Source: Deltaproteobacteria bacterium
Lineage (GTDB): Bacteria; Desulfobacterota; SM23-61
Reading direction: 5' to 3'
Length of the DNA stretch: 6,303 nucleotides
Assembly (NCBI GenBank): GCA_029857975.1
Contig: JAOUFX010000194.1
Location: forward strand, 1 to 6,303
Part shown: in pieces, positions 960 to 6,217 of the stretch
Position numbering within the stretch: the first letter of the stretch is position 1
How the letters are laid out: each line of letters starts with the position of its first letter
Notes under the pieces: generated by a model
The model's input: only the letters and a program-made list of their open reading frames with translations
Database searches by the model: none
Told to the model about the DNA's origin: nothing
Made by a program: the position numbers and the translations under genes

Positions 960-995
960 GGACTGGGTAACTTTCGGATAATTTTGGTAAAGAAA

Positions 996-1000
996 GGAGG
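996..1000 (+). promoter_or_regulatory. Shine-Dalgarno that sets the start at 1010
   Basis: AAAGGAGG ends at base 1000. An in-frame ATG at 1001 abuts it with no spacing and cannot be used efficiently. The ATG at 1010 lies 9 bases downstream, so 1010 is taken as the start. Confidence 0.8.
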
Positions 1001-1009
1001 ATGATACTC

Positions 1010-1717
1010 ATGGGTCAATCAAGTCAGTTGGACAGGACCTTTTCCTTTATCCTGAAACGCATGGTGGAGACAGGCCAAGCGCCTTTCTATGCGGAAATTG
1101 CTGCTGAATTGGGGGTTTCCGTGGAAGAAGGTCGTAAAGCCCTCCATGATCTTTTAGGGGCGGGAATTCCTGGTTGGGTCTATCCGAATACCAGCTACCT
1201 CGTTTCCTTGGCCCCTTTCAACAATCTTCCCACCCAATATCGGATCACGATCGATGGGCAACAAAAGTGGTTTGGGGAGTGAGGGTTTGAGTCGCTGGCG
1301 GTCAGCTGGCTCTTCAAAGGAAAAACAGTACAGATCGATGCTCCATGTCTTGATTGCGGATCACCCATCCGAGTGGAGATGAAAGATGGTATCATCAAAA
1401 GTACCGAACCCGAAGGTCTAATAGGGTACACATCGGTACCTTTCCGGGAATGGTTCAAAGACCTTCCTTATAGCTGAAGTACCATGAATCTCTTCCGGTC
1501 GGAAGAGCACGTTCGTAACTGGAGCGGTTTCAAATCGGGTACTGACGAAGGGATTGTTGAATTGTCTGCGTTGGTCAAAGTTTTTTCGGGCAATTTATTC
1601 ACCCGGCGGCTAAACCCGGATTATGTGTCCAATTATCAGAAGTATATAGGGGAATTCATCTCTGCCATTGGAGAGATAGGGAAAGTCCGCCCGTTCTGGT
1701 CCCCACAGGGTTCGTAG
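1010..1717 (+). CDS. MerB-like organomercurial-lyase family protein with two selenocysteines (U91, U156)
   Basis: One frame runs from ATG 1010 to TAG 1715-1717 (235 residues), interrupted only by TGA at 1280-1282 and 1475-1477. Residues ~1-65 are the MerB-type helix-turn-helix domain. The rest follows the MerB (PF03243) core: WFGE-U91-GFES matches YAWC96ALD99T, PCLDCG (112-117) matches HCAATG, and PYS-U156-STMNLF matches SFC159CHVHFF. The NLFRSEEHVRNW stretch is typical of MerB-like relatives. Plasmid MerB (212 residues) cleaves carbon-mercury bonds with Cys96, Cys159 and Asp99. Here both cysteines correspond to UGA, and Asp99 to Glu94. Each UGA is followed by a SECIS-like hairpin. A conventional reading gives a 90-residue protein plus orphan pieces without a binding site, including one from ATG 1484. 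Likely cytosolic, single-gene unit. The substrate (organomercury, another organometal, or other) is unknown. The alternative, a pseudogene with two nonsense mutations, is much less likely. Confidence 0.9.
1280..1312 (+). promoter_or_regulatory. UGA (Sec91) and its bacterial SECIS hairpin
   Basis: UGA at 1280-1282 is followed by a 9-bp hairpin, 1289-1297 with 1303-1312, containing one G-U pair and a single bulged U (1307). The apical loop is GCGGU, and GGUC begins 18 nt after the UGA. In E. coli fdhF the SECIS apical loop also presents GGUC, 19 nt after UGA, with a bulged U nearby, and SelB binds it. The form and spacing match the bacterial SECIS model. Confidence 0.85.
1475..1507 (+). promoter_or_regulatory. 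UGA (Sec156) and its bacterial SECIS hairpin
   Basis: UGA at 1475-1477 is followed by a perfect 7-bp stem, CTCTTCC (1490-1496) with GGAAGAG (1501-1507). The tetraloop is exactly GGUC and begins 20 nt after the UGA. The hairpin lies inside the conserved NLFRSEEH codons, so it is constrained both as protein and as RNA. Confidence 0.85.
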
Positions 1718-1744
1718 CTAACCCCGATTAAAATTTACTTAGCA

Positions 1745-1771
1745 GGCAGGCTATTTGAGCCTGCCTTTTTT
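1745..1771 (+). terminator. Rho-independent terminator of the selenoprotein gene
   Basis: GGCAGGCT (1745-1752) pairs perfectly with AGCCTGCC (1758-1765) around a 5-nt loop, then six T (1766-1771). It lies 28 bases after the TAG, so the gene is transcriptionally closed off from atoE. Confidence 0.9.
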
Positions 1772-4300: not shown

Positions 4301-4657
4301 TTACCACCCGTAACCAGACCCATACCCCATTCCGGGCCCACGTCTGTTACCCATTCCGGCCCCATGTCCGTAACCCATTCCGCCTCTCATGCCGTATCTC
4401 GGGCCATAATTCTGATACCCATTGCGAGAAGCGTTCAGCCGGGCCTGCTGTTCAAGGGTAAAACCGTTTTGAGCCTGATCAGGAGCTATATTGGATCGGG
4501 GACACCAATCCGAAGGATCCGCCGGGCCATACCCGCTTGCGCCGGGGCCATAACCACTATAACCCATGCCAAAACCTCTCCCCCATCCTTGAGCCAATGC
4601 CAAACCTGATGTAACCAGAATGGCAATCACAGAAATGGCTACTATCATCTTTTTCAT
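4301..4657 (-). CDS. Exported Gly/Tyr-rich ZraP-like small protein
   Basis: From ATG at 4657 to TAA at 4301, 118 residues. MKKMIVAISVIAILVTSG-LALA-QG is a classical Sec signal peptide with an AxA-type cleavage site near residue 22. The mature part begins with Gly/Tyr repeats and a single Cys in DWCPRS. It has a short FTLEQQARLNASR segment resembling the LTxxQ motif of the CpxP/Spy/ZraP group, then ends in a tail of GMGYG-type repeats. E. coli ZraP has the same LT-EQQ start and the same kind of GAGMGMGYG tail, but with about 80 residues of helix between them that are absent here. A start at 4687 would add MGKNGEKGEK before the signal peptide. It is rejected because AAAGGAG lies properly before 4657 and the predicted transcription start (~4683) is downstream of 4687. 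A periplasmic metal- or stress-related role is an inference by analogy. Confidence 0.75.
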   Translation of the reverse strand: MKKMIVAISVIAILVTSGLALAQGWGRGFGMGYSGYGPGASGYGPADPSDWCPRSNIAPDQAQNGFTLEQQARLNASRNGYQNYGPRYGMRGGMGYGHGAGMGNRRGPGMGYGSGYGW

Positions 4658-4693
4658 TTTTTCTCCTTTCTCTCCATTTTTACCCATTTAAAG

Positions 4694-5098: not shown

Positions 5099-5199
5099 CA
5101 ATCTACTGCCACAAATCCCAAAACAAATAAAGCGCCTGAAGGGGCTTAGGTGGGACAAAATAAAAGCCCGGGTTGATTAGCCTGGGCTTTTGTTTTTGG
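5096..5199. repeat. Terminator-bearing intergenic repeat, copy 1
   Basis: GGTCAATCT, then GGGGCTTAGG (5141-5150), ACAAAATAAAAGCCC and CCTGGGCTTTT recur in the same order at 6123-6217. A degenerate hairpin near 5130-5147 resembles the one at 4074-4101. Confidence 0.6.
5161..5194. terminator. Bidirectional intrinsic terminator
   Basis: AAAAGCCCGGG pairs with CCTGGGCTTTT (11 bp, one G-U) around an 8-nt loop. A-rich sequence precedes it and T-rich sequence follows, so it could stop transcription from either side. No gene of obvious need adjoins it. Confidence 0.65.
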
Positions 5200-6122: not shown

Positions 6123-6217
6123 GGTCAATCTGGCCCCGGCCGATGTAAAGAAAGAAGGGGCTTAGGATAGACAAAATAAAAGCCCAGGTTAAATGGCCTG
6201 GGCTTTTTTGTTTGGGG
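6123..6217. repeat. Terminator-bearing intergenic repeat, copy 2
   Basis: Same order of blocks as 5096-5199, highly similar from GGGGCTTAGG onward and slightly shorter at its left part. Two copies about 1 kb apart flank the lipoprotein gene. Confidence 0.6.
6177..6209. terminator. Bidirectional intrinsic terminator
   Basis: AAAAGCCCAGG pairs perfectly with CCTGGGCTTTT (11 bp), with A-rich sequence before and six T after. It is the unmutated version of the hairpin at 5161-5194. Confidence 0.75.

Follow-up and report, generated by a model that had tools for sequence, protein, structure and literature searches.

A MerB-like gene with in-frame UGA at both catalytic cysteine columns, a predicted double selenoprotein

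We analysed a stretch of 6,303 nucleotides (nt), hereafter the window, from contig JAOUFX010000194.1 of the Deltaproteobacteria bacterium assembly GCA_029857975.1, in which a MerB-like gene is read through two in-frame UGA codons (Table 1). Counted from the ATG at 1010, these UGAs are the only in-frame stops before the TAG at 1715-1717, and re-reading the sequence bore out the single frame of 235 residues with exactly two UGAs that a first-pass annotation of this DNA had described. That annotation had also expected standard gene calling to split the gene, and standard open reading frame (ORF) calling of 1010-1717 yields just two pieces, of 93 and 77 residues. A 235-codon frame without TAA or TAG has a probability of about 1e-4 in random DNA of the same base composition. 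Since such a random frame is expected to hold 4.1 TGAs, two TGAs by themselves are nothing special; the odds of two TGAs landing on two named codons of 233 are 1 in 27,028. The terminator noted at first pass directly after the gene corresponds to a terminator-like hairpin at 1744-1766. Two such hairpins were found in the region scanned against 1.9 expected by shuffling, so that the argument for this one is its position.

Table 1. Features of the MerB-like gene and its flanks in the window
Feature	Position	Strand	Remark
MerB-like protein coding frame	1010..1717	+	TAG-terminated; 235 residues with both UGAs read through
UGA codon 91	1280..1282	+	column of MerB Cys96, predicted selenocysteine
UGA codon 156	1475..1477	+	column of MerB Cys159, predicted selenocysteine
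AAAGGAGG ribosome-binding-like stretch	993..1000	+	9 nt before ATG 1010, read from sequence
Glu94 codon	1289..1291	+	column of MerB Asp99
Cys113-Leu-Asp-Cys116	1346..1357	+	Cys113 on MerB Cys117
SECIS-like hairpin 1	1294..1310	+	stem of 6 pairs; GGUCA loop, 17 nt downstream of UGA 91
SECIS-like hairpin 2	1490..1507	+	stem of 7 pairs; GGUC loop, 19 nt downstream of UGA 156
Intrinsic-terminator-like hairpin, then T run	1744..1766	+	downstream of the MerB-like frame

The read-through protein scores 66.6 bits against the Pfam MerB model PF03243 (gathering score 27), and its AlphaFold model matches MerB2 and MerB. When a profile of 25 relatives was aligned to chains of the Protein Data Bank (PDB), codons 91 and 156 fell on Cys96 and Cys159 of MerB, respectively, confirming the first-pass placement of the UGAs on the two catalytic cysteines; Cys113 aligned with Cys117, and the Glu at codon 94 with Asp99, a position that Ser occupies in MerB2. 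Cys96, Asp99 and Cys159 are given as essential MerB residues in the available portions of PMC8261052 and PMC4525700. Against the canonical signature in the same portions of PMC8261052 (Cys96, Asp99, Cys159 and Cys117), the window protein has UGA for both Cys96 and Cys159 and Glu94 for Asp99, and keeps Cys117 as Cys113. Columns 91 and 156 are Cys or UGA in 57/57 chosen rows of alignment A4, so this check, named in the first-pass annotation, did not refute its reading; in the same alignment Cys113 is invariant and Cys116 nearly so, Glu occupies the Asp99 column in at least 90% of rows, and the residues after each UGA remain conserved. The N-terminal part of the model resembles the winged helices of LexA/DtxR, and MerB chains align over this same part. 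The protein differs from MerB in having about 30 C-terminal residues beyond the MerB-aligned part, and it falls below the cut-offs of the NCBIfam MerB models NF009710 and NF033555 (32.9 of 193 and 25.3 of 200 bits).

The same pair of UGAs recurs among relatives. Searching a single genome per species turned up 193 relatives, and the 80 most similar to the UGA/UGA query were kept as loci; one of the two DNA patterns used cannot match UGA at codon 91. Columns 91 and 156 of these 80 loci read TGA/TGA in 74 and TGC/TGA in 6, never TGG, and column 156 is TGA in 80/80. The spacing between the two sites is 195 nt in 78 loci, 201 in one and 210 in one. Three further samples, of a phylum (297 genomes), a class (157) and Chloroflexota (251), were drawn evenly and not chosen by similarity to the query. 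Any match was present in 29 genomes of the phylum sample, 16 of which hold 20 places above 250 bits, with exactly two TGAs in all 20. Ten genomes of the class sample have a match above 320 bits, with two TGAs in each, and one further genome has a partial match that covers the first site only and holds one TGA. Strong places in the Chloroflexota sample carry two TGAs (four places) or one (one place), and its 18 weaker places carry one TGA somewhere in the match (11) or none (7). By the NCBI names in the record titles, the 80 loci fall in Thermodesulfobacteriota (29), Myxococcota (20), Chloroflexota (10), Pseudomonadota (6) and six phyla with one locus each, with 9 unplaced; the 20 under Myxococcota apparently reflect the old label Deltaproteobacteria. 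In four genomes (G129, G186, G037 and G048) the double-UGA gene is present in two or three copies, and locus L085 holds a decayed copy with an internal deletion, in which the first UGA column is still present. Eight stretches of viral contigs matched a pattern, none of them encoding a relative, and plasmids gave three records at 25-27% identity, two of which are annotated merBA.

Deposited proteins reflect the same two sites. The protein database held 243 relatives, of which 120 were listed; among these 120, Trp stands at both columns in 50, Cys at column 91 is followed by an end just before column 156 in 62 (61 at 155, one aligned one residue later), Cys stands at both in 5, and 3 with Trp, Ser or Gly at column 91 (one Ser, one Gly) end before column 156. 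The double Trp probably stands for UGA codons that gene calling at the source rendered as Trp. A deposited protein of 155 residues (P0070) coincides in the tree with a locus that has TGC and TGA at the two columns (L052), so in this case it was the second UGA that led gene calling to cut the protein short. A mark of bacterial selenoproteins is an in-frame UGA where relatives have Cys, and this pattern is found at column 91 (TGC in 6/80 loci) and at column 156 (Cys in 5/120 listed database relatives). On a quick, unrooted maximum-likelihood tree of 100 rows, the UGA/UGA label needs 14 changes, 6 of them forced by well-supported branches; the Cys-91 and Cys/Cys forms are scattered over the tree, which indicates repeated switching, to which an unrooted tree gives no direction.

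Each UGA is followed by a hairpin resembling a bacterial selenocysteine insertion sequence (SECIS). The bSECIS model, in the available portions of PMC13188914, has a loop of 3-9 nt with an early G, a stem of 4-16 pairs, a spacing of 16-37 nt and a minimum free energy of -7.5 or lower. Both hairpins fall within this model in stem and spacing (Table 1), at -12.1 kcal/mol for hairpin 1 and -13.2 kcal/mol for hairpin 2. The E. coli fdhF element likewise has a GGUC loop, at a spacing of about 18 nt. Across the relatives, the loop GGTC is present at 60/75 UGA-91 sites, 74/80 UGA-156 sites and in 2/6 Cys-91 members, with full pairing of stem 1 in 72/75 and of stem 2 in 69/80. Two loci with TGC at column 91 (L044 and L053) retain the full hairpin sequence, which may be a relic of lost selenocysteine (Sec) use. 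The outer pair of stem 1 is GC in 62 and CG in 11 sequences; that of stem 2 is CG in 43, UA in 20, UG in 2 and unpaired in 11, and two further pairs of stem 2 are changed on both sides, in two sequences each. For both stems, 0/500 shuffles came up to the observed covariation score, paired-cell share or count of cells altered on both sides, and 2/500 came up to stem 2's count of pairs changed on both sides, in a comparison where related sequences may exceed shuffles without structure. Sliding the stem partners destroyed the pairing of both stems. Synonymous codons are frozen within the hairpins, with a mean divergence from the gene's own usage of 0.91 bits in hairpin 1 (4 codons) and 0.70 in hairpin 2 (6 codons), against 0.115 bits at 45 other conserved codons (72 sequences, P = 6e-4). 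A strict hairpin definition, chosen after the alignments had been seen, fits 130/155 Sec sites and 5/30,445 other TGAs of the same loci. At one of these five, L006:4233 (+), the frame reads by eye as the Sec site of a formate dehydrogenase.

Around these genes UGA serves as an ordinary stop: of 541 neighbouring ORFs with at least 150 residues (called with standard stops), 227 end in TGA. As for the machinery that would decode it as Sec, selB is over cut-off in 41/48 carrier genomes versus 2/14 control genomes, and tRNA-Sec in 40/48 carriers (one marginal) versus 5/14 controls. The phylum sample has selB over cut-off in 263/297 genomes and, by E-value, in 15 of its 16 carriers.

We compared the gene with known systems. 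SaoL, of the Sec-assisted organometallic (SAO) system, is the one MerB-like selenoprotein listed in the available portions of PMC13188914, with one Sec in a CU motif, and it is the only MerB-like selenoprotein found in print in the literature searched, as far as the portions available go. SaoL (NF040728) resembles the window protein in being MerB-like and in having UGA at the Cys159 column, as seen in one member, a gene at L081:946-1491 (-) in a genome of the phylum sample (148.3 bits, cut-off 140). There the UGA at the Cys159 column follows a Cys, and the Cys96 column is Cys; the NCBI model ends at the residue before the UGA, which puts the Sec of L081 at MerB Cys159. The window protein, in contrast, reaches 37.5 bits of the 140 required and has two UGAs where SaoL has one Sec, and the other four window proteins, scanned against NCBIfam and Pfam, match no SAO model and no mer gene. 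A second point of comparison is NF041115, a metal-binding protein (putative mercuric reductase) with a UxxU motif in the available portions of PMC13188914; it shares two Sec and a link to mercury by name, but it is another family by name and model, does not match the window protein and holds its Sec pair in one short motif. An open-access literature search on selenocysteine MerB, mostly without subscription papers, found no MerB with two Sec, and neither did a word search of the main texts of PMC9312934, PMC12013277, PMC5029168 and PMC2398784, in agreement with the first-pass annotation, to which no characterised example was known.

Two weak matches, at L083:846-1586 (-) and L084:641-1381 (+), represent a second, distant MerB-like family; they score 59.6 and 61.6 bits against Pfam MerB and likewise have UGA at both catalytic columns, with the same GGTC hairpin core after the second. 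Their 94 database relatives end exactly before the first site (57), have Trp at both sites (24), stop before the second site after a Cys at the first (4), or are other or incomplete (9). More than one family may therefore have double Sec at the MerB active site. In both L083 and L084 the upstream frame looks MarR-like by eye. A further MerB-like frame, L082:949-1533 (+), has a single TGA, with Cys at the Cys96 column and TGA at the Cys159 column.

Taken together, the gene probably encodes a two-selenocysteine MerB-family organometal lyase, in which the Sec pair would attack a metal such as that of methylmercury and Glu94 would pass the proton. The frame, the columns of the UGAs, the assigned MerB fold, the conserved hairpins with their compensatory changes and the wide conservation can all be read from sequence; conservation and the hairpins after both UGAs support, as a prediction, the double selenoprotein with a Sec/Sec active site put forward at first pass. 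SelB would read each UGA via that UGA's own hairpin. By analogy with MerB, the Sec/Sec pair would then attack the metal of the organometal, Glu94, in the place of Asp99, may take part in the proton transfer that releases the carbon group, and the freed metal ion would stay bound to both selenolates. Its next acceptor might be low-molecular-weight thiols or selenols and not MerA, because merA is rare in carrier genomes. Selenium may alter the substrate or the rate.

Several results weigh against this reading. Glu replaces Asp99. In stem 1, the count of pairs changed on both sides (one) and the further pair types were reached by 411 and 361 of 500 shuffles, and further pair types in stem 2 by 56/500, which does not clearly exceed the shuffles. 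A loose hairpin definition fits 152/155 sites and also 4,952/30,445 other TGAs, and single-strand folding is little better than in shuffles (z of 0.13 and -0.83 for hairpin 1, -1.26 and -2.57 for hairpin 2). The Sec machinery, which the first-pass annotation had wanted traced in the same genome, was checked in relatives through selB and tRNA-Sec and did not refute the reading; it was found in most carriers and fell short in others, selB being under cut-off in 7/48 and tRNA-Sec in 8/48. Five controls passed for tRNA-Sec, so this cut-off is loose, and one phylum-sample carrier (G057) is without selB. Because selB is almost universal across the phylum, finding it in carriers lends little support and does not discriminate. 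Finally, merA is over cut-off in only 3/48 carriers, and no other mer gene is present among the five window proteins scanned.

The link of the double-UGA family to methylmercury is a lead, not a result. The mercury-methylation gene hgcA is over cut-off in 25/48 selected carriers. In the phylum sample it is present in 10/16 carriers versus 73/281 other genomes (one-sided P = 0.003), and in the class sample in 9/10 versus 58/147 (P = 0.002); the two samples overlap in some genomes, among them the carrier G002, on which both are centred, and relatedness below class level is uncontrolled. Two further phylum-sample carriers have hgcA fragments below the cut-off, which would raise the carriers to 12/16; the comparison counts genes over cut-off only. 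Among class-sample genomes of at least 4.0 Mb, read by hand from a table covering all but 4 of the 157, the figures are 8/9 versus 38/69 (P = 0.05), so that the link is partly one of genome size. In G002, hgcA and the double-UGA gene lie more than 1 Mb apart. As regards merA, current models in the available portions of PMC8261052 have MerB hand mercury directly to MerA, and organisms with MerB only raise the question of product release. According to the available portions of PMC8605020, merA is also present in 34% of merB genomes in IMG; a missing merA is therefore not peculiar to the double-UGA family. A bolder proposal, possible though on balance doubtful, is that the protein is a MerA-independent methylmercury demethylase, mainly of anaerobes that often have hgcA, whose catalytic Sec pair cuts the C-Hg bond and locks the mercury to selenium, that more than one MerB-like family gained Sec at its active site, by origin or by spread, and that surveys based on Cys96 and Cys159 overlooked it.

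The same double selenoprotein could instead act on organotin, organolead or organoarsenic, or only trap metal, without acting on organomercury. We regard this as unlikely but as the most serious contender. Glu94 in place of Asp99, the lack of other mer genes among the five window proteins scanned, the scarcity of merA among carriers, and the name of the related SaoL system, Sec-assisted organometallic and not mercury in the available portions of PMC13188914, all speak for it; the fold and both catalytic columns are nevertheless those of MerB, and the hgcA enrichment points to mercury, though partly via genome size.

It is quite improbable that the MerB scaffold here carries a selenoprotein of redox or metal-sensing function, with the two Sec forming a diselenide and no carbon-metal cleavage. 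A redox role is thought to hold for most prokaryotic selenoprotein families (PMC9312934, available portions), and both the winged-helix resemblance of the N-terminal part and the conservation of Cys113 and Cys116 would fit such a protein. However, MerB chains align over that N-terminal part and share the Cys117 column, and Glu is kept at the Asp99 column. A code change, with UGA read as Trp or another residue in these organisms, would explain the 50 listed database relatives with Trp at both columns; we rejected it as a very faint prospect, since the columns hold TGA or TGC and never TGG and TGA is an ordinary stop nearby, while relatives carry Cys there and the UGAs have hairpins. Two nonsense mutations in a decaying merB gene, or assembly errors, would account for the break into two called pieces, but this reading was dismissed as having a negligible chance, given the same two codons in 20/20 strong phylum-sample matches and 74/80 loci from many separate assemblies, the conserved residues after each UGA and the different look of the truly decayed copy in L085.

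Within the window, the gene lies between an upstream RadC-family frame with a TGA stop and a downstream short-chain fatty acid transporter, with a DUF4136 protein farther on. An operon search over 699 neighbouring ORFs within 6 kb at 81 loci found no general partner, the widest cluster spanning 10 loci. An Rfam scan of the window with E up to 1 gave four matches, none reaching the gathering score, and a tRNA scan of the window found none. At 4301-4687 (-) lies a small Gly/Met/Tyr-rich protein that matches no NCBIfam or Pfam model and, judged by eye, starts like a signal peptide. By eye we also noted that the intergenic stretches at about 5135-5195 and 6155-6210 resemble each other and carry a terminator-like hairpin.

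It is unusual for an enzyme to have predicted selenocysteine in place of both catalytic cysteines and to keep this design across several phyla. Selenium is bound very strongly by mercury, which makes product release by such an enzyme a sharp chemical question. Two published surveys of merB screen for Cys96, Asp99, Cys159 and Cys117 (PMC8261052 and PMC8605020, available portions), and database gene calls stop at the second UGA or appear to translate UGA as Trp. A class of possible methylmercury degraders in anaerobes related to sulfate reducers could thus be invisible, and the gene is a direct target for demethylation tests in organisms that also carry hgcA.
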